This document shows, piece after piece, positions 6,578 through 51,092 of a stretch of 64,000 nt of DNA (position 1 is its first letter; each line of letters begins with the position of its first letter). The translations under genes and the position numbers were made by a program. Source of the stretch: Micromonospora sp. WMMD1102 (GTDB taxonomy: Bacteria > Actinomycetota > Actinomycetes > Mycobacteriales > Micromonosporaceae); assembly GCF_029626265.1 (NCBI RefSeq), contig NZ_JARUBN010000001.1:4467001-4531000 (forward strand), given 5' to 3'. The notes under the pieces are model-generated. The model worked only from the letters and a program-made list of their open reading frames with translations. It had not been told where the DNA came from and searched no databases.

Positions 6578-6645
6578 GGGCGAACCTCCAACGTGGTCAT
6601 TCGGTCGCGGCCGGTGACACCCTACCGGCCGCGATCGACGGGCTT

Positions 6646-12015: not shown

Positions 12016-12023
12016 ACCGCGTG
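12016..12023. repeat. Right target-site duplication of the ISAs1-type element
   Basis: ACCGCGTG, copy of 10638-10645; removing the element and one copy restores the kinase frame through '[12 protein letters not shown]'. Confidence 0.9.
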
Positions 12024-20975: not shown

Positions 20976-21002
20976 ACAGTGGGAGGGACTGGACAGCGGG
21001 GG

Positions 21003-22643
21003 TCATGCCCCCCGACCCTCCGGCTGGCCGGACAGGCCGATGTCGACGACACCGGCTCGCGGGGCGGCCGGACCGACCAGCAGCTGGACGACGTCGACCT
21101 GCCCGCGCGGCACTCCGAACATCGCCCGCACCGCGGCGGAGTCGTGGTCGGAGACCGGCCGGCACCCGATACCCACCGCGCTGGCGGCAAGGCGGCACCG
21201 CTGTACCGCGATGCCGGCCAGCACGTGCTGCATCCGGTACCAGCGGTCGCCGTACCCGCGCCGTCCCGGGTCGGTGTCGGCGAAGAGGAACAGCCGGGCG
21301 GTGGCCGTGCGCAGGCCGCCCAGGACGCCGGTCGGGGTGAACCCGTGTCCGTCCCCGCCTGGGGCGGACCGGAGGCTGTGCGTCGCCGGATCGTACGCGT
21401 AGGGTCCGGGAGCCAGCCCGGTCACCCGGCTCGGGAGGCAGTAGGCCGCCAGCCGCCCCGCCCCGGCCCGGGTGCCGGTGATGTCGCAGCGGTATCCGGT
21501 CAGCAGCCACGCCAGCAGCGTGCCGAGTTGCCGGACCGTCATCGCGTCACCGGTGAACCGGACGGCCGACCGGAGTGCCGCGTCCGCCCTCGCGGGGTCG
21601 AGTGACTCGGGCAGGGCGAGCGGCTCGGGCAGGTCGATTCTCCGCCCGGACTCGGCTGGGCGTCGCCACCGGTCGGCGGCGGTCGGGCCGTCCCGCCCCG
21701 GCGACCGGCGGAAGGCGTCCGAGGTAGGGACGTCCCGGGCGCGGTCGGCCGTAGCGCCGCGCAGACTCGCGTGATGCAGCCGTACCGCGCTGGGATGCGC
21801 GGCGGCACGCAGCTCGAGATCGGACTCCAGCCCTCGAACCGCGTTCGCGCCCGGCGCCGGCCGCTGCGGCGCCGCCGCAGCGGGCGCGTCGGCGTGCGGT
21901 GCCGGGGCGGGCGGCGCGGCTGGTGGGGGGCCGGCGAGGACGACTGCGTAGACCGACTCGATGTCGGGATCCAGCCCGAGCAGGGCGTCGAGGGTCCGGT
22001 CGTCGAAGACGAGGCGCAGGTCGGTCCCGTCGGGCGCCCGGTGCAGGAGCTGGCCGGCGAGGGCGCCGGTGTCCAGACAGCCGAGGCGGTAGCCGAACGC
22101 ACCGTAGGTCGACGCGTTCTTCCACATCCGGCAGGAGACGAGCAGGGTGTACGGCGTGGGCGCGCGGCCGAGCGCGGCCCGCAGCGACGCCTGCGGATCG
22201 TCGGTGGCCAGCGTCTCCAGGGTGTGGTGCGTCGCGTCGTAGTGGTAGACGCCGGGCCCCGGCGCGAACCCGCCGGTCACCGCCAGATACAGCTCGGCCG
22301 GATAGTAGGCACCGCCGGACGGCACCGCCCGCCGCACGCCGCCGCGCAGGGTCGGGGCGGTGTTCGTGGCGGGGAAGCCGCCGAGCGTGGCCATCGCGGC
22401 CGTCGTGTAGAACTGGAATCGGGTGGGCGCGTATGCCGAGGCCAGCGACCCGAGCAGCGCCAGCGACCCGGCGAACCGGCCCGGGTGGGGTGCCGCCGGC
22501 CAGGGCAGGGGGATCCGGACGCTTCCCGGGTACTGCTTGAACAGTGGCGGTCGGCGAGGCCCCCGGGGGGTGTCGCGGTGCACCCGCAGGTAGTCGGCGG
22601 TTGCCGTGCCGGGCGCTGCTCCGGCCGGCCGCGGTGACGTCAT
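21003..22643 (-). CDS. SagB-like (nitroreductase-fold) azoline dehydrogenase, two-domain, copy 1
   Basis: 546 aa. Two nitroreductase-fold halves: the first with 'AYAPTRFQFYTTAAMATLGG', 'RAVPSGGAYYPAELYLAVTG', 'YHYDATHHTLETLA' and 'CRMWKNASTYGAFGYRLGCL'; the second with 'GPYAYDPATHSLRS', 'WYRMQHVLAGIAVQRCRLAA' and 'GIGCRPVSDHDSAAV'. These are FMN-dependent SagB/ThcOx-type enzymes that oxidise azolines to azoles. A Pro/Ala-rich linker separates the halves. The start is taken as ATG 22643; a TTG at 22763 behind a strong AAAGGAGGGG is a real alternative. It is paralogous to the enzyme at 30489 and divergent from the main operon. Confidence 0.85.
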   Translation of the reverse strand: MTSPRPAGAAPGTATADYLRVHRDTPRGPRRPPLFKQYPGSVRIPLPWPAAPHPGRFAGSLALLGSLASAYAPTRFQFYTTAAMATLGGFPATNTAPTLRGGVRRAVPSGGAYYPAELYLAVTGGFAPGPGVYHYDATHHTLETLATDDPQASLRAALGRAPTPYTLLVSCRMWKNASTYGAFGYRLGCLDTGALAGQLLHRAPDGTDLRLVFDDRTLDALLGLDPDIESVYAVVLAGPPPAAPPAPAPHADAPAAAAPQRPAPGANAVRGLESDLELRAAAHPSAVRLHHASLRGATADRARDVPTSDAFRRSPGRDGPTAADRWRRPAESGRRIDLPEPLALPESLDPARADAALRSAVRFTGDAMTVRQLGTLLAWLLTGYRCDITGTRAGAGRLAAYCLPSRVTGLAPGPYAYDPATHSLRSAPGGDGHGFTPTGVLGGLRTATARLFLFADTDPGRRGYGDRWYRMQHVLAGIAVQRCRLAASAVGIGCRPVSDHDSAAVRAMFGVPRGQVDVVQLLVGPAAPRAGVVDIGLSGQPEGRGA

Positions 22644-22860
22644 GGACTTCAGCCCTCCCCCGATTACGACCGGCGTCGCAGTACGGTAGCTCGTCCCGCC
22701 GGTGGCCACCGCCCGGTGCTCGGCACCGGCGAGCGCAGCCTGCGCCGGCCGCGCCGGAAGCAAACGATCTTGCCCCTCCTTTACCTGTCTGGTGCCTGGT
22801 TCCCTGCCGACCCGGATTCCTACCGTTGGCCGGATAGATCAACCACGCCGCACCGGTGTG

Positions 22861-22886
22861 GTCCGCGCGCCATCCGCCGCGCGGAC
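22861..22886. promoter_or_regulatory. Hairpin in the bidirectional promoter region of the RiPP operons
   Basis: GTCCGCGCG (22861-22869) and CGCGCGGAC (22878-22886) are exact inverted copies 45 bases before the first operon gene. A CACCGGTG palindrome sits just upstream. The whole 22644-22930 interval separates the two divergent transcripts; I find no clear -35/-10 pair in it. Confidence 0.5.
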
Positions 22887-22930
22887 CGACCCGACCCGAC
22901 GCGGCGGGTACGCCGGGAACAGGAGACGAG

Positions 22931-24301
22931 ATGCCTTCCAGTCAGGAGGTCGACGGGCGGACGTCCGACGGCCCGTTCCTGAGCGTCGTGATCCCCACGT
23001 TCCACGACTCGCAGTGCCTCGCCCTCACCCTCGACTCGCTGACCCGGCAACGGCTGGACGCCGAACTGTTCGAGGTGATCGTGGTGGGTGACGGCGACAC
23101 GGTCGACGACCAGGTCGGCAAGTCGATCGCCGCCCGGGGTTACCGGTACCTCGGGCTGCCGGAGCACGTAGGACGCGCCGCCGCCCGCAACCACGGCGTG
23201 ACGGCCGCACAGGGGCGGGTGGTCGTCTTCCTGGACAGCGACTCGTTCGCCGACCCGGACCTGTTGGCCCGACACCACGAGTTCCACCGGAGCGCCGACA
23301 CGCCGCGGGTACTGGTCGGCAAGCGCTGGGAGATCGACTGGCCGGTGCTCGACCGGATCCTCCGGGCCGGTGCGATGGACCTGGCGACGCTGCCGGCGGA
23401 GAGCGCGGACATGCGGTTTCCCGAGCCGACGCCGCCGGAGCGGATCGCGGAACTGATGCGGACCCCCTGGCTGTTCGCCTACACCAACAACATCTCGGTG
23501 CCCCGGGAGGTGCTGGTCTCCGCCGGCATGTTCGACGAGGCGTTCGGCACCAGGTGGGGCTTCGAGGACCTGGAGTTGTTCTACCGGGTCTACCTCGAAC
23601 TGGGCCGCCGGTCGGCCGCGTTCCACTACGACGACCGCGCCACCTGCTACCACCTGCCGCACTACCGGCCCAACATCGGGATGTACCAGGACTACTACGC
23701 GAACATGGCGGTGGCCAAACAGAAGCACCCCTGCTACGAGTGGGAGTTCACCGGGCTCGTCCAGCCGGCGCAGGCGGCCGACCGGATCCGGCGGTACCAG
23801 GCGAGCTTCGCCGCGACCGCCGGGGAACCGGCGTGGCGGGCCGCCCGAGCCTGGCGACGCTCCGGCCTGGACACGGTCGTCGCCGCCGCCGACCGCCCCG
23901 CGACACAGCCCCACCCGCGGGTCCTGGTGATCGGTCTGGGCACCGAGGAACTCGACCTGCCGGACGGTGCGGAGACGTTCGACCTCGGACGGCCCCGTTC
24001 GGCGACCAACCCGCACCTGCTGGGCTTCGCCACGCACTATCCGGACCGGGCCTTCGACGTCGTCGTCAACGTCAACCTCTGGCGCTGGCTCGGCGTGCAC
24101 GACATCAGCCGGTACCTGGGAGAGTCGCTTCGGATCGCCGGCACGAGCGTGCTCGTGCACTCCGCCGACGCCCGGCTGCCGGCCGGTGTCTCCGGGGTGG
24201 ACGACGTCGAGTACTTCGTCCGGATGCTGGCACAGCACCTGGACACGTCGGTCGAGCACCGGGATCCGGACTGCGTCGTCACGGTACGGGCGACGGCGTG
24301 A
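22931..24301 (+). CDS. GT2-family glycosyltransferase with a C-terminal Rossmann-like extension
   Basis: 456 aa from ATG 22931 (GGAG seven bases upstream). The GT-A domain has 'LSVVIPTFHDSQCLALTL', 'AAARNHGVTAAQGRVVVFLD', the metal-binding DSD near residue 102, and 'TRWGFEDLELFYRVYLELG' with the acceptor-site ED. About 150 residues follow with a degenerate nucleotide-binding pattern ('PRVLVIGLGTEELDLP', 'AFDVVVNVNLWRWLG') resembling a methyltransferase-like fold without a clear SAM motif. It is the first gene of the overlapping biosynthetic operon, so a sugar is probably attached to the peptide or to an intermediate. GTGA overlap with the next gene. Confidence 0.85.
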   Translation: MPSSQEVDGRTSDGPFLSVVIPTFHDSQCLALTLDSLTRQRLDAELFEVIVVGDGDTVDDQVGKSIAARGYRYLGLPEHVGRAAARNHGVTAAQGRVVVFLDSDSFADPDLLARHHEFHRSADTPRVLVGKRWEIDWPVLDRILRAGAMDLATLPAESADMRFPEPTPPERIAELMRTPWLFAYTNNISVPREVLVSAGMFDEAFGTRWGFEDLELFYRVYLELGRRSAAFHYDDRATCYHLPHYRPNIGMYQDYYANMAVAKQKHPCYEWEFTGLVQPAQAADRIRRYQASFAATAGEPAWRAARAWRRSGLDTVVAAADRPATQPHPRVLVIGLGTEELDLPDGAETFDLGRPRSATNPHLLGFATHYPDRAFDVVVNVNLWRWLGVHDISRYLGESLRIAGTSVLVHSADARLPAGVSGVDDVEYFVRMLAQHLDTSVEHRDPDCVVTVRATA

Positions 24302-25719
24302 GCGGGTCCGTCCCGGGCCGCGGCGTGAGCGAGTCCGTCGCGAGCCGCGACCACGTGTTGTCGACTGCGCCGCGACGATTCCTGCCCCAGGTGCCGGTCG
24401 TCGGCGCCGAGGGTTCCTGGCTGTGGTTGGCCGACGGAAGGCGGTTGCTGGACTTCCACGGGCAACACATGTGCATCGGGATCGGTCACCGCCACCCGAA
24501 GCTGACCGCCGCCCTGCACGACGCCGTCGACCGGCTGGACTACGTCGCCGACTTCTTCCCGTCCGAGCAGAAGGACCGGGCGGCACGGCTGATCGTCGAG
24601 GAGACCATGGCCGGATCCCCGTGGGCCGGCGCGGTGCGCTTCGTCTCGTCGGGCTCGGAGGCGACCGAGGTGGCGATCATGATCGCGCGGCTCTTCCAGA
24701 ACCGTCCGCTGATCGTGACCCGCGACCTCGCGTACCACGGGTGGACCGCCGGTGCCGCCGACGTGACGGGGGTCGGCATGCTGCGCAACGGCTTCACGCC
24801 GGCCGGTGGCACCAGCCGGCCGGTGCCGGGCGGTCAGCCGCAGCCCTCGGCGCCGGCGCCGATCTGCGTCTCCTGCCCGCTCGGCCGGACCTACCCCGGA
24901 TGCAAGGACGCCGACGGGACGCTTGCCTGCGTCACCGCGACCGAGCGGGTGATCAGATCGGCCGGAGTGGACCGGGTCGCCGCGTTCATCACCGAGATCT
25001 GGCACGGGGCCGGCGCCTTCCTGGTGCCCGACGAGTACGTGGGGCAGATCCGCGACCTCACCCGGCGGCTCGGGGTGTTGTGGATCGACGACGAGGCGAT
25101 CTCCGGAATGGGCCGGACCGGACGGTGGTGGGCGTTCCAGCACCACGGCGTGCAGCCCGACATCATGACCGCGGCAAAGGGACTGGGCAGCTCGGCCGTA
25201 CCCGTCGGCGCCTGCGTGGTGAGCCGGGAGATCGCGGACTACTTCGCCACCGGCTTCTGGGGCCACAGCTCGACGTTCGCCGGACATCCGCTCGCGATGG
25301 CCGCCGTCGCGGCGACCCTGGAAATCATGATCGAGGAGGACGTCGTCGCCCGCGTCGCGTCCCTCGGCGACGTCGTCCGGGACCGGTTGGCCGACATGGT
25401 GGCCCGGCACCCGTCCGCCGCGAGCGTCGGCGGCCGAGGGCTGGTCTGGGGGATCGAGCTGGTCCGTGACCCGGAGACCGGACGGCGGTGGGTGCCGGAG
25501 GACAGGTGGCGCAGCCCCGGCCTCGACCCGCTGGACGGGTTCCAGCCCGCGGGTTTCGTCGTCGGCGAGTGCGCGCGCAACGGGGTCCTCCTGTTGAGCT
25601 ACGCACCGAACACCGTCACGATCGCGCCGCCACTGCGGATCAGCGACGAGGAACTGGAGATCGGGCTGGACGCTGTCGACGCTGCCCTGCACCGGCTCGA
25701 CGAACTGGCGGCGGCGTGA
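24298..25719 (+). CDS. Class III (PLP-dependent) aminotransferase
   Basis: 473 aa from GTG 24298; GTG 24325 is an alternative, and the first codons form a short direct repeat. Typical omega-aminotransferase motifs: 'FVSSGSEATEVAIMIAR', 'AYHGWTAGAADVTG', 'WIDDEAISGMGRTG' with the PLP-nitrogen Asp, and the Schiff-base Lys in 'TAAKGLGSS' near residue 294. The 'PAPICVSCPLGRTYPGCKD' insert is common in this family. It moves an amino group from a donor to an aldehyde or ketone. In this operon it could aminate an oxidised sugar or side chain made by the SDR; the substrate is not shown by sequence. Confidence 0.9.
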   Translation: MSGSVPGRGVSESVASRDHVLSTAPRRFLPQVPVVGAEGSWLWLADGRRLLDFHGQHMCIGIGHRHPKLTAALHDAVDRLDYVADFFPSEQKDRAARLIVEETMAGSPWAGAVRFVSSGSEATEVAIMIARLFQNRPLIVTRDLAYHGWTAGAADVTGVGMLRNGFTPAGGTSRPVPGGQPQPSAPAPICVSCPLGRTYPGCKDADGTLACVTATERVIRSAGVDRVAAFITEIWHGAGAFLVPDEYVGQIRDLTRRLGVLWIDDEAISGMGRTGRWWAFQHHGVQPDIMTAAKGLGSSAVPVGACVVSREIADYFATGFWGHSSTFAGHPLAMAAVAATLEIMIEEDVVARVASLGDVVRDRLADMVARHPSAASVGGRGLVWGIELVRDPETGRRWVPEDRWRSPGLDPLDGFQPAGFVVGECARNGVLLLSYAPNTVTIAPPLRISDEELEIGLDAVDAALHRLDELAAA

Positions 25720-25789
25720 GCGGATCGGCCGGCGGCGCGGATCCGGATCTCACCGAACGGATTCCGTCGAGTGGTAGGAAGGACGGCAA

Positions 25790-27769
25790 GTGAGGCCCAA
25801 GTTGCGGGAGGACTGCGTCTACGTCGCGGTCGAGGAGGGCGTCTACCTGGAGACGGCGACCGGGCAGCTGCTGCTGCCGGGCGAGGTGACCTTCCAGCTG
25901 TTGGACCGGATCGCACCGTACCTGGACGGCGAACGCACCCTTGCCTCGCTCACCGCACCGCTGCCCGACTCGGCGCGCACCGCGGTGCTCACCCTGGTCG
26001 AGGCGCTGTCCGCGGCGGGCATGGTGCGCGACGTCGACCTGGACCTGCCACACCAGCTCACCCCGGCCGAGCGGGAGCAGTACGCCGAGGAGATCGCCTT
26101 CGTGGAGGTGGACGGCGGCTCCGGTGCCCACCGGTTCGAGCGGTTCCGGGCCGGGCGGGTCCTGGTCGTCGGCGACGGTCCCCTGCCGGTCGCCGTGCTG
26201 GACACGCTCTGGCGGATCGGGCTGCGGACGGTCAGCGTCGCGGTGAGCGATCCGGCCGGTACCGTCGAGGTGGAGGCGGCGCTGCGCGAGACGCTGGCCC
26301 AGGACCCGGCGCGTGGGATCGACGTGGTCGACGCGAGCCTCTGGTCCGACGCGGGGGCACCGGCACCGGAGGCTTTGGTCGGATACGACGGAGTGGTCCA
26401 CTGTGCCTCCACGCCGATGCTCGGCCGGGCGGCGCTGGTCAGCCGGGCGGCCGGGCTGGCGAAGGTCCCGGTGGTGAACGCGGTCGTCACCGCCGGCACC
26501 GCGTGGATCGGCCCGATCGGCGCCGACCCGGTCCGGGAGTGCTGGGAGTGTGGTTGGCTTCGCCTGTTGGGGGCGATGGACGCCGCCGACGCCACCTGGT
26601 CGGCGCATCAGCTCGTCGACCGGCCGGAGGCGCCGGCCGAGCGGTACCTGTCGCGGCCCCTGATCGGCCTGATCGCGGCGGTGACGGCGTTCGGCCACTT
26701 CCGCTCCGCCACCCGGGCGGGGCTGGGGCAGCGTGCCGAGCTGGTCCGGTTGGACCTGCGGACGGCCGAGTCGGAGGTGCACCGGTTCCTGCCGCACCCG
26801 CTGTGCCCGAGCCACCGGCCCGGGCCTCCGGTCTGGGCCGCACCGCTCGGCGGCACCGCCGGGCACCGCGACACCCCGGCCGCCGAGGCGTTGTCCCAGG
26901 CCGCGGTCGAGGTGGCCGACGACCGCCTCGGCCCGTTGCTCGGGCTCACCGAAGGCCCGTACCAGCAGTTGCCGCTCCGGGTGGTCGAGGCGACCTTCGC
27001 CGACCCCTGCGCGGCGGGCGCCGGCCCGATCCGGGTCGTCGGTGCCGCCGACACCGACGAGGACGCCCGGCGCAGGGCGGTCGTGCTCGGCTGCGAACTC
27101 GCCGCCGAGCGCCTCGCGGCGCATCCATCCGCCGCGGCGGGCAAGCCCCCGTCCACCGCGGCGGGTAGGCCCCCGGCCGGCGCGGCGGATAGGCCCCCGG
27201 CCGGCGGTGCCGGCGTGCGGGTCGCCGCCGGCGCCGGCTCGACCTGGCCGGAGGCGGTCGGCCGGGCGTTGCTGCGGCACTGCCACCGGCTCACCGCGGC
27301 TTCCCAGGACCGGCCGGGTTCCGCCGACCCGCCGCCACCGGAGGCGGTCCCGCTCGTGGCGTCGACGGACCTCCCCCTCGCGTCCGCTGCGCTGTTGCTC
27401 GACAGTTCGCTGACCACCGTCGACCTGTCGTCGGCGTCCGGGGTGCACGCGGTCGGCGTGTTCGGCCGGGGGAAGCTGCTGGCCAGCGCATCCGCGCTGA
27501 CCGGGGCGGTGGCCACGCGTACCGCCCTGGAGACGGCCGTGCTCCGCCTTCAGGGCGTCACCGCCGCCGCCGACATCCCGCCAGATCTCGACCCGGCCGG
27601 CGAGGGCGGCACCGCCTGGGCGCGGGCGCTGCCGGGCCTGGTGGCCCACCTCGCCGAGCGGGGATGGCGGACCACCGTCGCTGCGATCGACGTCGACCCG
27701 GCGCTGAACCGCCTGGTCCCCCACCTCGTCGCGGCCGACCTCGCACCCCTGGGAGAGACGCCGTGCTGA
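25790..27769 (+). CDS. TOMM leader-binding F protein (ocin-ThiF-like)
   Basis: 659 aa from GTG 25790 behind AGGAAGGA. The first ~90 residues ('LREDCVYVAVEEGVYLETAT', 'GQLLLPGEVTFQLLDRI') resemble the RiPP recognition element that grips leader peptides. A ThiF/E1-like Rossmann region follows ('GRVLVVGDGPLPVAVLDTLW', 'YDGVVHCASTPMLGRAALVS'), with CxxC at residues 251/254 as part of a probable Zn site. The C-terminal third contains a 24-bp tandem repeat coding for AAGRPP-type units. These F proteins deliver the precursor to the partner YcaO protein. The gene overlaps the YcaO gene by seven bases. Confidence 0.87.
   Translation: MRPKLREDCVYVAVEEGVYLETATGQLLLPGEVTFQLLDRIAPYLDGERTLASLTAPLPDSARTAVLTLVEALSAAGMVRDVDLDLPHQLTPAEREQYAEEIAFVEVDGGSGAHRFERFRAGRVLVVGDGPLPVAVLDTLWRIGLRTVSVAVSDPAGTVEVEAALRETLAQDPARGIDVVDASLWSDAGAPAPEALVGYDGVVHCASTPMLGRAALVSRAAGLAKVPVVNAVVTAGTAWIGPIGADPVRECWECGWLRLLGAMDAADATWSAHQLVDRPEAPAERYLSRPLIGLIAAVTAFGHFRSATRAGLGQRAELVRLDLRTAESEVHRFLPHPLCPSHRPGPPVWAAPLGGTAGHRDTPAAEALSQAAVEVADDRLGPLLGLTEGPYQQLPLRVVEATFADPCAAGAGPIRVVGAADTDEDARRRAVVLGCELAAERLAAHPSAAAGKPPSTAAGRPPAGAADRPPAGGAGVRVAAGAGSTWPEAVGRALLRHCHRLTAASQDRPGSADPPPPEAVPLVASTDLPLASAALLLDSSLTTVDLSSASGVHAVGVFGRGKLLASASALTGAVATRTALETAVLRLQGVTAAADIPPDLDPAGEGGTAWARALPGLVAHLAERGWRTTVAAIDVDPALNRLVPHLVAADLAPLGETPC
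27131..27202 (+). repeat. Three 24-bp tandem repeats inside the F-protein gene
   Basis: Units at 27131-27154, 27155-27178 and 27179-27202, each coding for eight residues of the form xAAGxPPx (AAAGKPPS, TAAGRPPA, GAADRPPA). It is a likely flexible linker prone to copy-number change. Confidence 0.85.
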
Positions 27770-29721
27770 CCGGCCGACCGGCCGGCACCGTCCTGGTCAC
27801 CGGCTCGGGCGCCCTCGCGACCGAGGTCCGGGCCGCGCTGCGCCGGTCGCTACCACCCCCCGGCGGACAGCGGACCGCCGCCCTGGCCCTCCAGGTGGCC
27901 GTCGGAATCGACCTCGCCGACTCGGACGTCAACCACCGCGCGGCCCGGCACGGCCCGCCGGTGCTCGCCGTCCGGGTCGTCGCGGACGCCGTCGAGATCG
28001 GCCCGTTGGTGGTACCCGGCGAGCCGGGCTGTCTGGAGTGCGTACGGCGCCGGGCGGACGGAGCGCGGCGGGCCGGCACGGCGACGGCCCGGAAGATCGC
28101 CTCGGCCCGCGACGAATTGCGCTGGTCCGGGCTCCCGTCCTGGGTGCTGGCCGGGGTCGGCGCGCTCGTCGCGGACGAGGTGGGCACGCTCGGGCTGCCC
28201 GGCACCGACCGGAGTGCCGTCGCCGACCCGCCGCGCAGCCGACAGACGGTGCTGCGGGTCGCCACCGCGTCGTTGCGGACCAGTCGGCACCGCTTCCTGC
28301 CGGTGGCCGCGTGCCAGACCTGCGGCGGCCTGCCCGAGGACACCGCGACGGCGGCGGTCTTCCCCACCCGGCCGAACCTGAAGGCCGACCCCGACGGCTT
28401 CCGGCTCGGCCCGATCAACGGTGCCGAACTGCTCGACCGCTTCGTCGACGAACGCACCGGCGTGGTGGCCGGCGTCGAGCTGCACCTCGGCGGCGAGACG
28501 CCGGTGAGCGCGGCCCGGGTCAGCCCGGTGTGCGAGGCCGAGACCGTCGGCTACGGGCGCACCGTCGACCGGACGACGAGCGTGACGGTGTCGATCCTGG
28601 AGGGACTGGAACGCCGGGCCGGTCTCCAGCCCGGCGGGAAGCGCACGGTCACCCGGTCCAGTTACGCGGATCTCGCCCCCGGCACCGCGGTCGACCCGGT
28701 CTCGCTCGGCCTGCCGACCTGGTCGCCGTCGGGCCGGAGCGGCTACGTCGACTACACCCCGGACCTGCGGATGAACTGGGTGTACGGGTACTCGTTCGGG
28801 CGCCGGGCGCCGGTGCTGCTGCCCGAGTCCTATGCCTACTACGGGGTCCACGGGGGGCGACGGTTCGCGTTCGAGTGCTCCAACGGGTGTGCGCTGGGCG
28901 GCAGCCTGGCGGAGGCGGTACTGCACGGCATCTTCGAGATCGCCGAGCGGGACGCGTTCCTGGCCACCTGGTACGCCCGGCTGCCGGCCCCCCGCGTCGA
29001 CCCGGGTACCGCCACCGACCTGACCGTACGACTGCTGGTGGACCGGATGGAGCGGGCCGGCCTGGCCGTGCACGTCTTCGACACCACGATGCCGGAGGGC
29101 GTTCCTGCCTGGTGGGTGATGTTGGTGAACGAGGACGGCCACCCGGAGCATCCGATGGTCTACTGCGGGGCGGGGGCGGGTCTCGACCCCGAGGGAGCGC
29201 TCCGCTCCGCGCTGTTCGAGGCCGTCAACGGCATCGGTTTCATGCGGCGCCAGCTGCACACCCCGGAGGCGGTCGAGCGGGCGCACGCGATGCTCGCCGA
29301 CCCCGACCTGGTGGAGGCGATGGAGGACCACGCCCTGCTCTACGCCCTTCCCGAGGCATGGCCACGGTTCGGGTTCCTCTACCGCGACGCCGAGCTGCAC
29401 AGTGTGGCGGAGGCGTTCCCGCCGGCGCAGCGGTACGTCCCGAGCCCCGACCTGACCGACGACCTCCACCACCTGGTCGACCGCTACCTGCGGTCGGGCC
29501 TGGACGTCGTCGCGGTGGACACCACCCCGCCGGAACTCCGCGCCGCCGGTCTGTACGCGGCGAAGGTCGTCATCCCCGGCACGTTCCCGATGACCTTCGG
29601 GCACCGGCACCGGCGGGCCGAGATGCTGCCCCGGCTGCGCACCGCACCGGTCCGGCTCGGACACCGCACCGAGCCGCTGCCCGACGAGGAGGTGAATCCC
29701 CATCCACACCCGTTCCCGTGA
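27763..29721 (+). CDS. YcaO-domain azoline-forming cyclodehydratase (TOMM D protein)
   Basis: 652 aa from GTG 27763. Residues ~1-200 are an E1-like partial domain with a Cys4 zinc site (C90xxC93 and C184xxC187). The YcaO domain follows, with ATP-site patterns 'EAETVGYGRTVDRTTSVTVS', 'FECSNGCALGGSLAEAVLHG' and 'IFEIAERDAF'. The protein ends in 'NPHPHPFP', the C-terminal PxPxP motif characteristic of azoline-forming YcaO proteins. It activates the amide oxygen next to Cys/Ser/Thr with ATP, giving thiazolines or oxazolines in the precursor at the end of this cluster. No TfuA partner is present, which argues against thioamide chemistry. Confidence 0.93.
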   Translation: MLTGRPAGTVLVTGSGALATEVRAALRRSLPPPGGQRTAALALQVAVGIDLADSDVNHRAARHGPPVLAVRVVADAVEIGPLVVPGEPGCLECVRRRADGARRAGTATARKIASARDELRWSGLPSWVLAGVGALVADEVGTLGLPGTDRSAVADPPRSRQTVLRVATASLRTSRHRFLPVAACQTCGGLPEDTATAAVFPTRPNLKADPDGFRLGPINGAELLDRFVDERTGVVAGVELHLGGETPVSAARVSPVCEAETVGYGRTVDRTTSVTVSILEGLERRAGLQPGGKRTVTRSSYADLAPGTAVDPVSLGLPTWSPSGRSGYVDYTPDLRMNWVYGYSFGRRAPVLLPESYAYYGVHGGRRFAFECSNGCALGGSLAEAVLHGIFEIAERDAFLATWYARLPAPRVDPGTATDLTVRLLVDRMERAGLAVHVFDTTMPEGVPAWWVMLVNEDGHPEHPMVYCGAGAGLDPEGALRSALFEAVNGIGFMRRQLHTPEAVERAHAMLADPDLVEAMEDHALLYALPEAWPRFGFLYRDAELHSVAEAFPPAQRYVPSPDLTDDLHHLVDRYLRSGLDVVAVDTTPPELRAAGLYAAKVVIPGTFPMTFGHRHRRAEMLPRLRTAPVRLGHRTEPLPDEEVNPHPHPFP

Positions 29722-29743
29722 GCACGCCCACGACCCGGGGGAT

Positions 29744-30499
29744 GTGCCCGATGCGACCGCCGGCCGGCCGGTGCTGGTCACCGGGGCGTCCCGGGGCATC
29801 GGTGCCGCCATCGCGCACAGGTTCGCCGCCGCCGGCGACCGGGTGGCCGTGCACCACAGCGGCACCGGTGCCCGGGCCGCGGAGCCGCACGCCGAGCTGC
29901 CGGGTGTCGGGCATGTGTCGGTGGTGGCCGACCTGCGCGACGCCGACGCGGTGCTGCGGATGGTGGACGAGGCGGCCGACGCGCTGGGCGGTCTCGCCGT
30001 GCTGGTGAACAATGCCGGCGTCTTCGGAACCCATCCGATCCACGAGACCGGCTATCCCGGCTGGCGGCGTGCCTGGCGGGAGACGCTCGACGTCAACCTG
30101 CTGGGGGCGGTCAACACGACCTGGGCAGCCGTCCGGCACCTGCAGGCGGGTGGCCGGATCGTGAACGTCAGCTCGGTGAGCGCGTTCCGGGGTGAGTGGT
30201 CCGCGGCCGCGTACGCGGCGAGCAAGGCGGGGTTGAACTCGTTCACCCAGTCGATGGCGGTGGCGCTGGGTCTGCGGGGCATAGCGGTGGCGGCGGTGGC
30301 CCCGGGATGGGTGGAGACGGACATGACCCGCGACGTACTCGCCTCGCCGGTGGGCGCGGCGATGCGTGCCCGCAGCCCGTTCGACCGGGTCGGACGGCCG
30401 GCGGAGGTAGCCGACGCGGTGCACTACCTGGCCTCGCCCGCCGCCGAGTGGTGCAGCGGCGCCGTACTCGACCTGAACGGTGCCTCCCATGCCCGGTGA
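29744..30499 (+). CDS. Short-chain dehydrogenase/reductase (SDR)
   Basis: 251 aa from GTG 29744. Classical SDR features: NAD(P) motif 'VTGASRGIGAAIA', 'LVNNAGVFG', catalytic Ser in 'NVSSVSAF', Tyr157-x3-Lys161 in 'YAASKAG', and 'VAPGWVETDM'. It would oxidise or reduce an alcohol/ketone on the peptide or sugar, perhaps giving the carbonyl used by the aminotransferase upstream. It lies 22 bases after the YcaO gene and overlaps the next gene by 11 bases. Confidence 0.92.
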   Translation: MPDATAGRPVLVTGASRGIGAAIAHRFAAAGDRVAVHHSGTGARAAEPHAELPGVGHVSVVADLRDADAVLRMVDEAADALGGLAVLVNNAGVFGTHPIHETGYPGWRRAWRETLDVNLLGAVNTTWAAVRHLQAGGRIVNVSSVSAFRGEWSAAAYAASKAGLNSFTQSMAVALGLRGIAVAAVAPGWVETDMTRDVLASPVGAAMRARSPFDRVGRPAEVADAVHYLASPAAEWCSGAVLDLNGASHAR

Positions 30500-32162
30500 C
30501 ATCCCGGAGCTCCGGACACCGGGCCGGAGCGCGGCGGTGAGCGGCCGGGACGGCGCCGTGCCGGCGCGCGGTGCCGCCGCCCGCGCCTACCTCACGCTGC
30601 CGCGCACCGGCGTCTCCGGGCTGGCCCGCGACCGGCGGCACAAGCAGCATCCGGACGGCGCCGTCGTCGAGCTGCCCTGGCCGGCCAGCGTTGCGGGGCC
30701 GTGCGGGCGCGATCCCGACGCCATGTCGGTGGTCGGCGCGGTCGCCGCGTCCTACGCGCCCACCCGCTACCACTACTTCACGGGCCGGTCCTGCGCCGTG
30801 CTGGACGGCCGGCCCGTCGCCGGGGGCGAGGGATACCCACCGGTGAGCGGCGTCGCCCGGGCGGTGCCGTCCGGCGGTGGCTTCCACCCGACCGAGCTGT
30901 ACGCGGCGGTCGCCGGGGACGACTCGCTGCCCGGCGGGCTGTACCACTACGACGCGACGCACCACCTACTGGAAACCCTGGCCACCGGTGATCCGCGCGG
31001 TCTGCTCCGGACCGCTCTGGGCCACGAGCCCGCCGGCGTGGTGTTCCTGATCTCCTGCCGGCTGTGGAAGAACAGCGCCAAGTACGGCAGTTTCGGCTAC
31101 CGCCTCGGCGTCGTCGACAGCGGCGTACTGCTCGGGATGGTGCTGGCCGCGGTCCCCGCCCCGGTCCCGGCGGCGGTCCGGTTCACCTTCGACACCGACC
31201 TGCTGGACGCGGCGTTCGGCCTCGACCCGGACCTCGAATCGAGCTATGCGCTGGTCGAGGCGCAGGTCGTCGGGGTGCGTAAGGTGGCCGGCCGGCCGCC
31301 GCCGGCTGTCACCCGGTCGACCGGCCTGGCAGCCGACCGCGAACTGCTCCGGCTCGCGCATCCGGCGGTCCTGCGGCTGCACAGGGCGAGCCGGGCCGCC
31401 ACCGGGGACGCCCGGGTGCTGTCCGGGGGCACCCCGCCGGGTGTGGTAGCCCCGCTGGTGCCCGGGGTCGCCGCGCCCTCGGTCGTCCCACCGGCGTCCG
31501 GGGGCACCCCGCCGTCGGTCGTCCCGCTCCCCGGGCCGCTTCCGGTGGACCTCCGCCGGGGCGTGGCGGTCCGGCGGTCCGCCGTACGGCTCACCCCGGC
31601 GCCGCTGTCGCAGGCCGAGTTCGGCACCGTGTTGTGGCATCTGCTCAGCGGATACGACAGCGACCTGGCCGGCACCGCCGGGCGGTGCGGACACCTGAGC
31701 GCGTACTGCGCGGTGGAACGTGTCGAGGACGTCGAGCCGGGCGGCTACGCGTACGACCCGTACGCCCACCGTCTCGTCTCCGCCGGTCGTCGCGGTGACA
31801 TCCGCGCATCGGTCGACGCGGTCCGGGTGGAGGGGAACGGCAGCAGCCTCCGGCCGGCCGCGGCGAGCATCTTCCTCTACGGCGTCCTCGACGCCGGTCT
31901 CGACGCGGTCGGCGACGCCTGGTACCGCATCCAGGGCATGATCGCGGGCATCGCGGTGCAGCGGGCCGCCCTGGCCGCCTCGGCGACCGGGCTGGCGTGC
32001 CGGCCGTCCTTCGGATACCACAGCGGGCCGGCGGCGCGGCTGTTCGGCCTACCGGCCGACCAGCACGACCTGATGCACGTCGTCGTGGGGCGGGGCGCAC
32101 CGCTGGGTGGGGTGGTCGACATCGCACTCGGTCCCGGCACCCCGGCCGGGGGTGCCCGGTGA
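30489..32162 (+). CDS. SagB-like (nitroreductase-fold) azoline dehydrogenase, two-domain, copy 2
   Basis: 557 aa from ATG 30489. It has the same two-half layout as the divergent copy at 21003: 'SYAPTRYHYFTGRSCAVLDG', 'RAVPSGGGFHPTELYAAVAG', 'YHYDATHHLLETLATGDPRG', 'SCRLWKNSAKYGSFGYRLGV', then a Pro/Gly/Val-rich linker with a repeated SGGTPP unit, then 'WYRIQGMIAGIAVQRAALAA' and 'GLACRPSFGYHSGPAARLFG'. It probably needs FMN and oxidises azolines. Keeping two diverged paralogues suggests different sites or ring types. GTGA overlap with the deacetylase gene. Confidence 0.86.
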   Translation: MPGDIPELRTPGRSAAVSGRDGAVPARGAAARAYLTLPRTGVSGLARDRRHKQHPDGAVVELPWPASVAGPCGRDPDAMSVVGAVAASYAPTRYHYFTGRSCAVLDGRPVAGGEGYPPVSGVARAVPSGGGFHPTELYAAVAGDDSLPGGLYHYDATHHLLETLATGDPRGLLRTALGHEPAGVVFLISCRLWKNSAKYGSFGYRLGVVDSGVLLGMVLAAVPAPVPAAVRFTFDTDLLDAAFGLDPDLESSYALVEAQVVGVRKVAGRPPPAVTRSTGLAADRELLRLAHPAVLRLHRASRAATGDARVLSGGTPPGVVAPLVPGVAAPSVVPPASGGTPPSVVPLPGPLPVDLRRGVAVRRSAVRLTPAPLSQAEFGTVLWHLLSGYDSDLAGTAGRCGHLSAYCAVERVEDVEPGGYAYDPYAHRLVSAGRRGDIRASVDAVRVEGNGSSLRPAAASIFLYGVLDAGLDAVGDAWYRIQGMIAGIAVQRAALAASATGLACRPSFGYHSGPAARLFGLPADQHDLMHVVVGRGAPLGGVVDIALGPGTPAGGAR

Positions 32163-32932
32163 CCTCACGGGTGCTCGGCCCGACCGACGTCGTCGCGCTG
32201 GCCGATCTACTCGGTCCCAACGGCGTACTCGTGGTGTCGCCCCATCTCGACGACGCCCTGCTCTCCACCACCGGACTGCTCATCAGGCTGGGCCGGCCCA
32301 CCGTGGTCGCGACGGTCTTCGCGCGGGCGCCGAAGCAGCCGCGACCGGTGAGCGACTGGGACCGGTTCAGCGGATTCGACGACGCGTCGAGCGCGGCCTG
32401 GGTCCGGTCCGAGGAGGACCGGGTCGCCTGCGCGGTGCTGGGCGCGACCGCGCTGCACCTGACCGGGGTGGACGGTGCGTACGGCGGGGGCGGGGGCGGT
32501 CTCGACGAACTGCGCGCGGTGCTGGCCGGGGTACCGGACGGCACGACGGTGCTGCTCCCGGCCGGCATCGGAGGCCACCGGGACCATGTCCGGGTACGGG
32601 ACGACGGGCTGCGCTGGCTGACCGGGCGTACCCGGGTCGGCGTCCAGATCTACGCCGACCTGCCGTACGCCGCCAACCTGTGGCACTGGGGGGCCGAGGG
32701 AAGTGAACGGGTACTGGGCGACCGGCACGCACTGCGGACGATCGCGATGTTGGACGATCCGCCGGCCGAGGCGGTACTGCGTTGGGTCCGGCTCAGCGCT
32801 GCCGAGTGGGCGGTGAAGCGGCGGGCTGTCTGGGCGTACGCGTCGCAGCTCGCGCCGTTGAGCCTGACCGCGCGAGGTCTGATGAGCTGCCCCGGGCCGT
32901 TGCAGACCGAGGCCGTGTGGCGGATCCGATGA
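32159..32932 (+). CDS. PIG-L/LmbE-family deacetylase
   Basis: 257 aa from GTG 32159. The zinc motif is 'SPHLDDALLS' (His29, Asp31, Asp32), and the distal 'AGIGGHRDHVRVRDDG' supplies the HxxH-like ligand. Family members remove acetyl from N-acetylglucosamine on mycothiol precursors, GPI anchors and teicoplanin-type peptides. Next to two glycosyltransferases, it suggests that an N-acetylhexosamine is added and then deacetylated to a free amino sugar. ATGA overlap with the following transferase. Confidence 0.9.
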   Translation: MTSRVLGPTDVVALADLLGPNGVLVVSPHLDDALLSTTGLLIRLGRPTVVATVFARAPKQPRPVSDWDRFSGFDDASSAAWVRSEEDRVACAVLGATALHLTGVDGAYGGGGGGLDELRAVLAGVPDGTTVLLPAGIGGHRDHVRVRDDGLRWLTGRTRVGVQIYADLPYAANLWHWGAEGSERVLGDRHALRTIAMLDDPPAEAVLRWVRLSAAEWAVKRRAVWAYASQLAPLSLTARGLMSCPGPLQTEAVWRIR

Positions 32933-34284
32933 CCTCGGTCGGCGAGAGGCCCGGCGGCGGAGACGACATCCGTGCCCTGTGCCGTCGGTATCCGGGCCGG
33001 CTGGCCGCCGCTGTCGCGGACACCCTGGTCGTCACGGCGGACCCGCGGGCGCGCTCGGCCAGCCCGACCTACTGGGACCAGGCGCGCCGGTGGCGGGACG
33101 AGGTCACGACGGAGGCGCTGGCCCTGGCCGCCGAACCGGCGCGGACGCTGGCCGGGCAACTGGTCGAGGCTCCCGACTCGACGCGGACGTACTTCCGGCT
33201 GCGCGACGCGCTCACCCGGCTGGCCGCCCGGCCCGACGACGGCACCGAGTCGCTCTTCCGGGCGGCGTGGCGGGCCGAGGGCATGTCGCGGATCGGCTAC
33301 CACGTCGGACGGCGGTACCGGAACACCGGTGACGAGATGGCCGTGGCGGCGTTGATGCCGGCGTCGCAGGGTGGCCCTCCGGTGGCCACCGCGCAGCCGG
33401 ACGCACCGGACGGTACGACCTCGCCGGACGGCACGACCCCGCCGGTCCACCCGGCCGCCGAACGGTCACCGAACCCGCCCACCGTACTGGTCGTGGTGCC
33501 GTTCCGGGACGGCCGGGCCGACGCGGTCCGGCTCCGCAACGCGCTGGCCTGCCTGCGGGCGCTGGCCGACCAGGCGCTGCCCCGGCACCGCTACCACGTG
33601 ACGGTCGTCGAGTCGGACAGTCGACCTCGCTGGCGCGAGGCGGTGCGCCCGCTCGCGGACACCTACCTCTTCGCGCCCAAGGACGGCCCGTTCAACAAGG
33701 CGTGGACCGTGAACGTCGGTGTGCGCAACAGTCCCGTCCGGACCGACCTGGTCTGCGTGCTGGACGCCGACATCCTCGTGGACCGCCACTTCCTGCTGCG
33801 CAACGGCGCACGGTTCCTGCACGCCGGAGTCGGCGCGCTGCTTCCGTACCGGAACGCCCTCTATCTCGATCCGGCGGCGAGCCGGCACGCCATCGCGCGG
33901 CGCTGCCTGGCGGCGGCGCCCTCGGCCGGACGGGAGTCGCTGCGCGGCTTCGCGCTCCGGTCCCCCTCCGGCGGCTGCGTCTGGCTGCGCACCGAACTGT
34001 TCCACCGGGTCGGCGGCCTGGACGAACGGTTCGAAGGGTGGGGCGGCGAGGACGACGACTTCGCGATCAGGCTCGGCCTGTGGGCCGCGCTGGAGCGGTA
34101 CTCCGACACGCTGCTGCATCTGTACCACCCGCCGGCCAGGGCCGAGATCCGCGACGGCGTACCGACGAACGGGCCGTCCCGGGTGCAGTACTGGCCGACC
34201 CGGGAGATCGGTGTCATCGACCGGTACGCGCCCGGGGCCGACGCCGCCCGCCCGGACGTCCCGAGCACCGAGGAGCACGGCTGA
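32929..34284 (+). CDS. GT2/GT7C-like glycosyltransferase with N-terminal extension
   Basis: 451 aa from ATG 32929. About 170 residues without a recognised fold precede the GT-A domain. That domain has 'PTVLVVVPFRDGRADAVRLR', 'PFNKAWTVNVGVRNS', the DAD metal site near 280 ('CVLDADILVDRHFL'), and 'FEGWGGEDDDFAIRLGL' near 370-385. The WGGEDDD motif is the one used by beta-4-galactosyl- and polypeptide GalNAc-transferases for acceptor binding. A peptide Ser/Thr or sugar acceptor is plausible. It is the second transferase of the operon, and its stop shares a base with the next ATG. Confidence 0.87.
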   Translation: MTSVGERPGGGDDIRALCRRYPGRLAAAVADTLVVTADPRARSASPTYWDQARRWRDEVTTEALALAAEPARTLAGQLVEAPDSTRTYFRLRDALTRLAARPDDGTESLFRAAWRAEGMSRIGYHVGRRYRNTGDEMAVAALMPASQGGPPVATAQPDAPDGTTSPDGTTPPVHPAAERSPNPPTVLVVVPFRDGRADAVRLRNALACLRALADQALPRHRYHVTVVESDSRPRWREAVRPLADTYLFAPKDGPFNKAWTVNVGVRNSPVRTDLVCVLDADILVDRHFLLRNGARFLHAGVGALLPYRNALYLDPAASRHAIARRCLAAAPSAGRESLRGFALRSPSGGCVWLRTELFHRVGGLDERFEGWGGEDDDFAIRLGLWAALERYSDTLLHLYHPPARAEIRDGVPTNGPSRVQYWPTREIGVIDRYAPGADAARPDVPSTEEHG

Positions 34285-35204
34285 TGGAGATCGTCACGGA
34301 CCTGCGGGAACCGGAGCAGGTGCTCGGTCGGGTCGCCGACCACGGGGCGGTGCTGCTGCGGCCCGCGGACCGCTTCTCCCGCGCCGAGTTCGTCGCCCTC
34401 GGCGACGCGCTGATGCGGCCACGCTCGCACGGCACCGCGCTGGCGGAGGCCCGGGAGTTCGTGGCCGGTGACGCGACGACGACCACCGTGACGAGGGGCC
34501 GACAGGGAATCCCGCTGCACCGCGAGGCGTCGTACGTCCCCGGTTCGCCCTCGCTGCTCATGTTCTACTGCGAGCGTCCGGCGGCCGACGGCGGCGAGAC
34601 GATCGTCTGTGACGGCGTCCGGCTCCTGGCGGCCCTGCCCCGGGCGACCCGGGAGTTCGTCACCGGTGCCGAGATCCGCTGGCAACTCGACATGCCGGAC
34701 GGCAGTTGGCAGCAGATGTGCGGGGCCGACGACCCGGCGGCGGCGGTCGCCGCGATCACCGGATACGCGCCGTTCCTGATGCCCTGGGAGTCGGTGGCCG
34801 CCGACGCGGTGGGCCGGACCGTCCGGATGCGCCTGTCGACCCGGTGCGTCACGCCGGCGCTCTTCGACGGCCTACCGGCGTTCTGCAACTCCGTGCTGGT
34901 CCGGACCGGGGGCGGCGATGCCGACGACGGGCGGCGGCTGGAGCTGCGGATGGCCGACGGCACGCCGTTTCCGGCCGAGGTGCTCGGCGAGGTCGCGTCG
35001 GTCGCCGAGGAACTCACCGAGCCGGTGCCGTGGCAACCGGGTGACGTCGTCGTCGTGAACAACACGCGCGTGATGCACGGCCGACGCGGCTTTGCCGATC
35101 CGGCCCGGCGCATCCTGGTCCGGATGGGTTACCTGACGCCCGCGTCGGTCGACCGGTGGTGGCGCGCGCCAGCCGCGCCGGACCGGTCGCCGCCGGTGCG
35201 CTGA
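34284..35204 (+). CDS. TauD/SyrP-like Fe(II)/2-oxoglutarate oxygenase
   Basis: 306 aa. The iron triad is visible as His79-x-Glu81 ('GIPLHREASYVPG') and His265 ('NNTRVMHGRRGF'), and a 2-oxoglutarate-binding Arg follows in 'ARRILVRMGY'. Glu in the HxD/E position is common in clavaminate-synthase-like and SyrP-type enzymes, which hydroxylate amino-acid beta carbons. A hydroxylated residue could be the point of glycosylation. Last enzyme gene of the operon; the precursor gene follows after 176 bases. Confidence 0.9.
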   Translation: MEIVTDLREPEQVLGRVADHGAVLLRPADRFSRAEFVALGDALMRPRSHGTALAEAREFVAGDATTTTVTRGRQGIPLHREASYVPGSPSLLMFYCERPAADGGETIVCDGVRLLAALPRATREFVTGAEIRWQLDMPDGSWQQMCGADDPAAAVAAITGYAPFLMPWESVAADAVGRTVRMRLSTRCVTPALFDGLPAFCNSVLVRTGGGDADDGRRLELRMADGTPFPAEVLGEVASVAEELTEPVPWQPGDVVVVNNTRVMHGRRGFADPARRILVRMGYLTPASVDRWWRAPAAPDRSPPVR

Positions 35205-35304
35205 CCGGGCAGGGCGCCGTGCCGCAGGACCCGATGCCGGTAACTTACCCGTCCGTTGCCTGGCTGGGCCGATCCGATGATCCATACGGTTGAGGCAGCC
35301 GCGC

Positions 35305-35316
35305 GGCGGATCCGCC
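35305..35316. promoter_or_regulatory. 12-bp palindrome upstream of the precursor gene
   Basis: GGCGGATCCGCC, a perfect palindrome 64 bases before the precursor ATG, with a TACGGT (-10-like) word just upstream at 35285-35290. The 35205-35380 gap is long compared with the rest of the operon, so the precursor may have its own promoter. Weak evidence. Confidence 0.3.
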
Positions 35317-35380
35317 ATCCAGATCGTGCTCGACAGGGGCGGTTCCGACCGGACGCGGACCGGAATACGAAGGGGACAGA

Positions 35381-35611
35381 ATGAAGGTACGGGAAGACTT
35401 CGAGGCCGTCGTCCGGGATCTGTCCGGCCTGGACCTGAACGGGTTCCAGATCGATCCGCAGCGGCCGGAACTGACGCTGAGCACGCTCTCCATGTCGCCG
35501 GGAGTAACCCTGGTGGATCCGTCGCTGACCACGAAGAGCTGCACCCTGGCCTGTGGCGGTCAGGGCTGCAACTGCGTCTGTGACTCCGTCTGCCATGTGC
35601 ACGAAGGCTGA
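35381..35611 (+). CDS. Cys-rich RiPP precursor peptide (azole-type)
   Basis: 76 aa, ATG 35381 with AAGGGG seven bases upstream. Residues 1-50 are an acidic, Leu-rich leader ('VVRDLSGLDLNGFQID') followed by a Ser/Thr-rich stretch ('LTLSTLSMSPGVTLVDPS'). The core is about the last 25 residues, 'SCTLACGGQGCNCV' then 'CDSVCHVHEG', with six Cys, including a C-x-C-x-C run, plus Ser and Thr, all substrates for azoline formation. It lies directly behind the YcaO/F/SagB operon. The cleavage site is uncertain; GG at core positions 7-8 is probably within the product. No homologous known precursor is recognised. Confidence 0.85.
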   Translation: MKVREDFEAVVRDLSGLDLNGFQIDPQRPELTLSTLSMSPGVTLVDPSLTTKSCTLACGGQGCNCVCDSVCHVHEG

Positions 35612-35614
35612 TCA

Positions 35615-35669
35615 CAGGCAGCGGGAGCGCCTGTTGACCGCTCGGCCGGCCGGTCCTGAGGGCTGCCTG
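35615..35669 (+). terminator. Nested dyads after the precursor gene, possible terminator
   Basis: CAGGCAGC at 35615-35622 and GCTGCCTG at 35662-35669 are exact inverted copies; inside lies GACCG (35636-35640) against CGGTC (35651-35655). The structure starts three bases after the precursor stop and has no T-run. Confidence 0.4.
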
Positions 35670-35875
35670 GGCGGCCGGGGCACGGCGAGGACGGCGGAGC
35701 AGGACCTGGCGGTCCAGTTCACCGCCTGACCGTCGGGCGCCGCCCCGGCGCGGGCGGCCCGAGCCCGGGAAGCCGAGCCCGGGAAGCCCGAGCCGGCCTC
35801 CGGGGATGTGGTGTGCGCCGCCCTGACGCGGAGGCCGGCATCCGGCCGGGCAGGCGCGGCGGGGCGACACCGCGA

Positions 35876-35996
35876 CCTCGGGGCCCGGCTCCGAGGCGCC
35901 GCACCGTGTCGGTGCAGATTGGGGCCACGGCCACCGTCCGGCAACCCTTCGGGCCGACGCCACGAGGGCGAGGGGCAGCCGGACGGTGGCGGTGGC
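35876..35996. repeat. Hairpin repeat, right copy flanking the RiPP cluster
   Basis: Matches 18457-18582. The dyad here is CCACGGCCACCGTCCGGC (35925-35942) with GCCGGACGGTGGCGGTGG (35978-35995), one mismatch in 18 pairs. It lies between the precursor and hisG in the 35612-36024 gap, which otherwise holds a short tandem repeat of GAGCCCGGGAAGCC-type units at about 35758-35790 and no gene I can support. Confidence 0.75.
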
Positions 35997-36024
35997 TACG
36001 CCACCCCGGGCCGGACGGGCGGCG

Positions 36025-36870
36025 TCAGAGCCGGCAGGCGTGGATGTCCGTGACCAGGATCGCCCGGGCGCCGACCTCGTACAGCTCGTCCATGATCCGG
36101 TGTACGTCCCGGCGCAGCACCATCGCCTGGACCGCCACCCAGCCCTCCCGGTGCAGCGGCGAGATGGTCGGCGACTCGATCCCCGGGGTGAGCGCGGTGG
36201 CCTTCTCCAGCAGGTCGGCCCGGACGTCGTAGGCGAGCATCACGTACCGCCGGGCGACCAGCACCCCGTGCAGGCGCCGGACCAGCTGGTCCACCTGCCC
36301 GTTGGCCGGTGCACCGCTGCGGCGTACCAGTACGGCCGACGAGCGCAGGATGGGCTCGCCGATGATCACCAGACCGGCCTGCCGCAGCGTGGCACCGGTC
36401 TCCACCACGTCCGCCACCAGGTCGGCCACGCCGAGGCGTACGGCGTTCTCGACCGCGCCGTCGAGCCGGATGACCGTCGCGGTGACCCCGTGCTCGGCGA
36501 GGTATCCCTCGACCACCCCGGGATAGGCGGTGGCGATGCGCCGGTTGGCGATCTGGTCGACCGTGGCGACGGTCTCCGGCCGGGCGGCGAACCGGAAGGT
36601 CGCCGCGCCGAAGTCGAGGTCGAGCATCTCCTCGGCCGGACTGGCCGAGTCGACGAGCAGGTCCCGGCCGGTGATGCCGAGATCGAGGTCGCCGGAGCCG
36701 ACGTAGGTGGCGATGTCCTTGGGGCGCAGGTAGAAGAACTCGACGTCGTTGGCCTCGTCCCGGCAGATCAGGTCACGGTCGTCGGCGCGCTGGCGGTAGC
36801 CCGCCTCGCGCAGCATCTGGGCGGCGGGCCCGGACAGGGTGCCCTTGTTGGGAATGGCGATGCGCAGCAT
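36025..36870 (-). CDS. hisG: ATP phosphoribosyltransferase (long form)
   Basis: 281 aa; catalyses the first step of histidine synthesis, joining ATP and PRPP. 'RIAIPNKGTLSGPAAQMLRE' at the start, 'VGSGDLDLGITGRDLL', and the phosphate-binding 'VADLVADVVETGATLRQAGL' are typical. The C-terminal ~75 residues form the His-sensing regulatory domain of long-form HisG, so it should be feedback-inhibited without HisZ. It follows hisE with 120 bases between. Confidence 0.97.
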   Translation of the reverse strand: MLRIAIPNKGTLSGPAAQMLREAGYRQRADDRDLICRDEANDVEFFYLRPKDIATYVGSGDLDLGITGRDLLVDSASPAEEMLDLDFGAATFRFAARPETVATVDQIANRRIATAYPGVVEGYLAEHGVTATVIRLDGAVENAVRLGVADLVADVVETGATLRQAGLVIIGEPILRSSAVLVRRSGAPANGQVDQLVRRLHGVLVARRYVMLAYDVRADLLEKATALTPGIESPTISPLHREGWVAVQAMVLRRDVHRIMDELYEVGARAILVTDIHACRL

Positions 36871-48713: not shown

Positions 48714-51090
<2,377 letters not shown>

Positions 51091-51092
51091 CC

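Follow-up and report, generated by a model that had tools for sequence, protein, structure and literature searches.

The 64,000-nucleotide stretch analyzed here (the window) comes from the 8.9-Mb genome of Micromonospora sp. WMMD1102 (Micromonosporaceae; assembly GCF_029626265.1), where it spans positions 4,467,001-4,531,000 of the forward strand of contig NZ_JARUBN010000001.1. It contains a candidate biosynthetic locus for a ribosomally synthesized and post-translationally modified peptide (RiPP). Assignment to the azole-bearing class and of the precursor gene is supported, and the case for a linear azol(in)e-containing peptide (LAP) core together with its precursor is strong. Ten genes, all encoded on the plus strand, occupy 22931-35611, and an eleventh, encoding SagB1, diverges from them on the minus strand:

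21003..22643, minus strand: SagB1, a SagB-type dehydrogenase (TIGR03605; alternative starts at 22583 and 22763), with TY in place of KY
22931..24301, plus strand: GT2a, a glycosyltransferase (Pfam GT2, 1e-18; FLDSDSF and WGFEDLE)
24298..25719, plus strand: class III aminotransferase (Pfam Aminotran_3, 2.6e-72; pyridoxal phosphate lysine K294 in TAAKGLGS)
25790..27769, plus strand: F protein, with an N-terminus like a RiPP recognition element (RRE), an E1-like domain and a C-terminal part (TIGR03693, TIGR03882, AlphaFold model)
27763..29721, plus strand: fused E1-like/YcaO cyclodehydratase (TIGR03604, TIGR03882; C-terminus PHPHPFP)
29744..30499, plus strand: short-chain dehydrogenase/reductase (SDR) oxidoreductase (Pfam adh_short_C2, 1.2e-50; GASRGIG and YAASK)
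30480..32162, plus strand: SagB2, a dehydrogenase (TIGR03605; KY pair; start at 30480 or 30537)
32171..32932, plus strand: PIG-L deacetylase (Pfam, 8.2e-8; SPHLDD and GHRDH)
32929..34284, plus strand: GT2b, a glycosyltransferase (Pfam Glyco_transf_7C, 4.2e-10; FNKAWTVNVG, LDADI and WGGEDDDF)
34284..35204, plus strand: TauD-type Fe(II)/2-oxoglutarate oxygenase (Pfam TauD, 5.4e-28; H79, E81 and H265)
35381..35611, plus strand: 76-amino-acid precursor, with DLSGLDL in its leader and six cysteines (54, 58, 63, 65, 67 and 71)

A reading made from the sequence alone had placed this set in one overlapping operon. Overlaps of 1 to 7 bases do join GT2a to the aminotransferase, F to YcaO, PIG-L to GT2b, and GT2b to TauD, but SagB1 falls outside the operon because it is encoded on the opposite strand, and the precursor gene follows TauD after a gap of 176 bases. 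Purine-rich stretches precede the starts of GT2a, F, and the precursor. Rfam gave no match over 20900-36100, and a scan of 34900-36100 returned no promoter-like site and a single terminator-like site, on the minus strand. The tailoring set that the same reading had listed is matched by Pfam throughout, and, as it had stated, neither a LanB-type dehydratase nor a radical SAM enzyme was seen among those window genes, not all of them, that were given to Pfam.

LAP core enzymes and precursor

The YcaO protein clears its Pfam cut-off (252.9 bits against 25.7) as well as those of TIGR03604 (284.5 against 219.25) and TIGR03882 (98.8 against 36.9), both TIGR scans having begun at 27664. It ends in NPHPHPFP, residues 646-652 being PHPHPFP, which bears out the C-terminal PxPxP motif proposed earlier; PHPF is present in all 17 YcaO tails compared. 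The F protein had been called ocin-ThiF-like. It passes TIGR03882 (46.0 against 36.9), a model named for the leader peptide-binding protein of thiazole/oxazole-modified microcin (TOMM) precursors, but stays far below the cut-off of TIGR03693 (98 bits against 561.9). Its AlphaFold model (mean confidence, pLDDT, 80.4) has fold matches to MccB and to heterocyclases; the MccB alignment begins at residue 1, and MccB is described as RRE-containing in the portion of PMC7470986 consulted. Both SagB proteins exceed the TIGR03605 cut-off of 78.4, SagB1 with 111.6 bits (in the version starting at 22583) and SagB2 with 118.2, as expected from the earlier reading. The KY pair of SagB2, shared by its homologs in four related loci (L071, L072, L124, and L125), is replaced by TY in SagB1.

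Among the 417 window open reading frames (ORFs) of 35-160 amino acids, only the six-cysteine precursor named in that reading passes a leader-plus-cysteine filter, whereas in 200 shuffles under the same filter the mean was 0.015 and three reached 1. It matches no NCBIfam or Pfam model. A protein-database search returned a single homolog (P0134, 97% identical) and none from Micromonospora sp. NPDC049282. When a looser leader motif plus cysteines was sought in 21 sources, one ORF was found in the window and in each of the four related loci, three in L083, and none in the other 15. The related precursor ORFs, all beside GT2a, were picked for their cysteine content or because the gene caller listed them, at a stage when the motif had not yet been recognized; since it was written only after these five GT2a-linked ORFs had been inspected, L083 is the sole blind find of the scan. 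The three L083 ORFs (10137-12016) are probable LAP precursors rich in Ser and Cys, their leaders reading DLAELEA or DLSALEM; the locus is related to that of the window and has F and YcaO but no GT2a.

Tailoring genes and their distribution

GT2a matches chondroitin synthase (E 1.9e-16), its C-terminal part giving only a 14.4-bit methyltransferase match, below the cut-off. GT2b resembles beta-1,4-galactosyltransferase and chondroitin synthase (beta-1,4-galactosyltransferase 7, E 0.0012). The NCBIfam matches of the two transferases include no glycocin model. The PIG-L protein has Orf2* and Dbv21 as its best relatives by both sequence and fold, and its residues H25, D27, D28, and H139 are invariant in alignment A2 (27 of 120 listed homologs, from 133 found, plus the window protein). 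At E up to 1e-40 it was detected in one of 397 genomes of the order, its own, and a looser limit (1e-25) brought in weaker relatives from four further genomes of 300 in the family. PIG-L, GT2a-like, and aminotransferase relatives also lie in L085-L087 beside genes that look by eye like those of nonribosomal peptide synthetases, another type of natural product with a similar tailoring set. The closest solved chains to the aminotransferase, 5g09 and 5g2p, are named transaminase, and none of the best 60 of its 191 solved relatives is named as an aminoglycoside aminotransferase.

The locus was compared with 62 of 63 fetched loci carrying F and YcaO (L059, with no YcaO match, was omitted). Several of these stretches are short, and those of L124 and L125 have YcaO close to one end, so absence here means absence from the fetched stretch. 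GT2a occurs in four of the 62 (L071, L072, L124, and L125), a count that overstates its frequency because L124 and L125 were fetched through GT2a; among loci fetched through F it occurs in two of 14. TauD accompanies it in L071, L124, and L125. The aminotransferase has a homolog in L072 only (60%), adjoining GT2a there as in the window, and SDR homologs occur in six loci, none with GT2a; PIG-L and GT2b homologs are found in none of the 62. GT2a is thus the one transferase of the window locus also present in related LAP loci, in all four of which it adjoins the precursor gene.

The five GT2a-bearing loci group as one clade (100/99) in the 63-row YcaO tree, apart from the Bacillota rows; the tree carries warnings of long branches (including the window and L072) and of uneven letter make-up (including the window and L124). 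P0007, a 417-amino-acid partial protein, was left out of set A1, which used 12 of 13 matches. The window F protein is 90% identical to that of Plantactinospora sp. WMMB782 and 84% to that of Micromonospora sp. NPDC049282, and single proteins 84-97% identical are present in or inferred for these two strains, as individual proteins and not whole loci. Undescribed relatives of the cluster exist, namely the four related loci and these proteins.

A proposed route and its alternatives

On balance, we favor an F-protein-dependent LAP cluster whose six-cysteine precursor is predicted to be cyclized to thiazoles and is likely glycosylated, an N-acetyl sugar then being deacetylated on the peptide. This reading is built on the genes, motifs, precursor ORF, YcaO clade, and predicted folds, from which we infer all of the reactions. 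The RRE-like part of F would bind the leader around DLSGLDL and F would activate the fused E1-like/YcaO enzyme for cyclodehydration of cysteines. SagB2, proposed as the oxidase because SagB1 lacks the KY pair, would convert thiazolines to thiazoles, and TauD would hydroxylate a residue. With a guessed cut before Lys52, the core would weigh 2508.97 unmodified and about 2388.82 once six thiazoles had formed. GT2a would attach the first sugar to the peptide. The donor would probably come from primary metabolism (UDP-N-acetylglucosamine, for example), because no NDP-sugar gene is recognized by Pfam in the cluster; GT2b would add or extend a sugar, and PIG-L would free the amine. The SDR and aminotransferase may oxidize and then aminate a further position, and leader removal and export would rely on genes elsewhere.

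That the product is glycosylated, as the sequence-only reading had predicted, is the likely and best reading, because, among the LAP loci examined, GT2a was found in a single clade only and because the deacetylase resembles enzymes acting on peptide-bound sugar; fold and sequence likeness make it plausible that the sugar is deacetylated while on the peptide. The amino sugar in the same prediction remains speculative, both because the aminotransferase is closest to generic transaminases among the best 60 of its solved relatives and because its homologs occur in L072 without SDR or PIG-L and, in another genome, G002, without a LAP gene in the 20 kb read. A bolder proposal by analogy, which we hold to be rather unlikely, is that the peptide itself serves as the scaffold on which an amino sugar, perhaps with two amino groups, is assembled: N-acetylglucosamine would be attached, deacetylated as in teicoplanin, and oxidized and transaminated as in neosamine. 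If true, LAP, glycopeptide, and aminoglycoside chemistry would be merged in one 12-kb run.

Several observations weigh against the favored reading. A GT2a relative is encoded by 46 of 250 Micromonosporaceae (and by three of 197 genomes of the class, own genome counted in both), yet a LAP locus was found in only four of 23 other genomes whose GT2a context was read; these 23, out of 45 positive genomes apart from that of the window, were read for about 10 kb on each side, with a single copy covered in every genome except G042 (two), and further GT2a genes linked to LAP loci may have gone uncounted. GT2b relatives occur in 15 of 250 Micromonosporaceae, own genome counted, and none of 13 contexts read, one of them that of a second GT2b-like gene of WMMD1102, holds F, YcaO, or precursor homologs. 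In the GT2a tree (25 rows) the proteins from LAP loci do not group together, at least three changes being needed, so GT2a moved between LAP and other loci or was replaced; the LAP lineage of the window has even so retained a gene of this kind. GT2a and the precursor gene are 11 kb apart in the window. SDR, PIG-L, and TauD were not found on the 17.3-kb contig of L072, which has the aminotransferase, and the 76% identical aminotransferase of G002 adjoins a TPR regulator, the F and YcaO locus of that genome (L074) being on a different contig. No exporter or protease gene was recognized inside the locus, whereas L124 has an ABC-2 exporter (Pfam) and L071 and L125 similar ABC genes. The region around the G002 gene (L173, 3511-8897) also holds a 243-amino-acid protein without a Pfam match.

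The frequency of GT2a and GT2b relatives outside LAP loci and the scattered GT2a tree would suit sugar genes that make a separate glycan or lipid and merely neighbor the LAP locus. We consider this improbable: within a single run of like orientation the sugar genes are interspersed with F, YcaO, and SagB2, start and stop codons overlapping at several junctions, GT2a stands next to the precursor gene in the four related loci, and PIG-L co-occurs with F in two sets of relatives. A possibility to be taken somewhat more seriously, although still doubtful, is that the peptide is glycosylated while the aminotransferase, SDR, and TauD act on a side chain or end of the peptide instead of the sugar. 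The independent sorting of the aminotransferase and TauD genes (aminotransferase with GT2a in L072, TauD with GT2a in the other three loci) favors such action, as do the generic transaminases among the best solved relatives and 187.4 bits to the aminotransferase model of the daptides, which are RiPPs; that score misses the cut-off of 450, no decarboxylase was recognized among the cluster genes, and the aminotransferase gene adjoins GT2a in both the window and L072. Very improbable is a thiopeptide-like locus with its dehydratase and cyclase genes elsewhere. An F protein and a shortened fused cyclodehydratase are common to thiopeptide and heterocycloanthracin loci (according to portions of PMC4603692 and PMC7470986), but Pfam showed neither a LanB-type dehydratase nor a cycloaddition enzyme in the window genes submitted to it, and the precursor has only three Ser/Thr from Lys52 on.

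If the favored reading is right, polyazole peptides can be glycosylated, which could improve solubility and alter targets, and the YcaO clade offers a starting point for further mining.

Surroundings of the locus and comparison with known systems

Upstream of SagB1, an AfsR-like NB-ARC/TPR regulator is encoded at 18975..20975 on the plus strand (Pfam NB-ARC and TPR). Homologs lie in L072 and beside the G002 aminotransferase, and it is a possible pathway regulator. About 5 kb from SagB1, a minus-strand methyltransferase (15182-15919) scores 93 bits against the daptide methyltransferase model (cut-off 175). The window has ABC genes too, at 1280-2956 and 39428-41735, in both cases outside the locus. 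Elsewhere on the minus strand are a UvrD-type helicase with GajB-like PADLOC matches (115 bits) adjoining a GmrSD-family protein (PADLOC Orf5, 478 bits), a possible defense pair (4412-9123); a DDE transposase adjoining a short kinase-domain ORF with PD-T4-6-like PADLOC matches (88 bits; 10652-12437); and riboflavin genes (48714-52493) behind an FMN riboswitch (52321-52493). A co-directional plus-strand run at 42091-48191 encodes two GT2-type proteins, a PMT-like protein, and a galactose-oxidase-like protein.

We found no open-access paper describing a glycosylated LAP or this cluster, in agreement with the earlier claim that no described cluster matches, and a glycosylated azole peptide would be of a kind not found described in that literature. 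The main text of a TOMM survey has no word starting with "glyco" (PMC4603692), and LAPs make up 37 of 779 clusters in the consulted part of a Micromonosporaceae survey (PMC10868606). Full novelty is tempered by thioamidated (TfuA/YcaO) RiPP clusters, in which, in the sections of PMC8120280 consulted, glycosyltransferase genes beside YcaO are the most abundant tailoring genes and some clusters are annotated LAP; the same sections call glycosylated RiPPs rare, describe a thioamidation core, unlike that of the window, and show no product glycosylation. Novelty is tempered further by a thioamitide cluster in which a glycosyltransferase gene goes unused, and glycocins provide a glycosyltransferase acting on a ribosomal peptide, as proposed here (both in parts of PMC9576775). 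Glycocins are S/O-glycosylated bacteriocins and not azole peptides, unlike the predicted product.

Heterocycloanthracin-type LAPs of the Bacillota share the F protein, the shortened fused E1-like/YcaO enzyme, SagB, and a Cys-rich precursor. We rejected this assignment: F is below the TIGR03693 cut-off, and the window YcaO belongs to the separate five-row clade, outside that of the Bacillota rows. Homologs of GT2a, GT2b, PIG-L, the aminotransferase, and TauD were not found in the Bacillota F and YcaO loci fetched (tblastn, E 1e-4). A thiopeptide assignment was rejected for lack of a dehydratase or cyclase among the locus genes by Pfam or NCBIfam, and a daptide assignment on the aminotransferase score and the decarboxylase result given above. 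The four GT2a-bearing loci share F, YcaO, SagB, GT2a, and the leader motif DLS(D/G)L(D/E) with the window.

In neomycin and butirosin biosynthesis, amino sugars are assembled on the scaffold by N-acetylglucosamine transfer, deacetylation, oxidation, and class III transamination. The gene types of the locus resemble this set of steps. Orthology to neosamine enzymes was considered and, given the generic transaminases among the best 60 solved relatives, not established, and the scaffold here would be a peptide. Orf2* and Dbv21, the teicoplanin and A40926 pseudoaglycone deacetylases, deacetylate a sugar on a peptide scaffold, in their case a nonribosomal glycopeptide. They share fold and zinc motif with the window PIG-L protein at about 27% identity. 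The locus makes it possible to test whether a deacetylase of the teicoplanin kind works on a ribosomal peptide.
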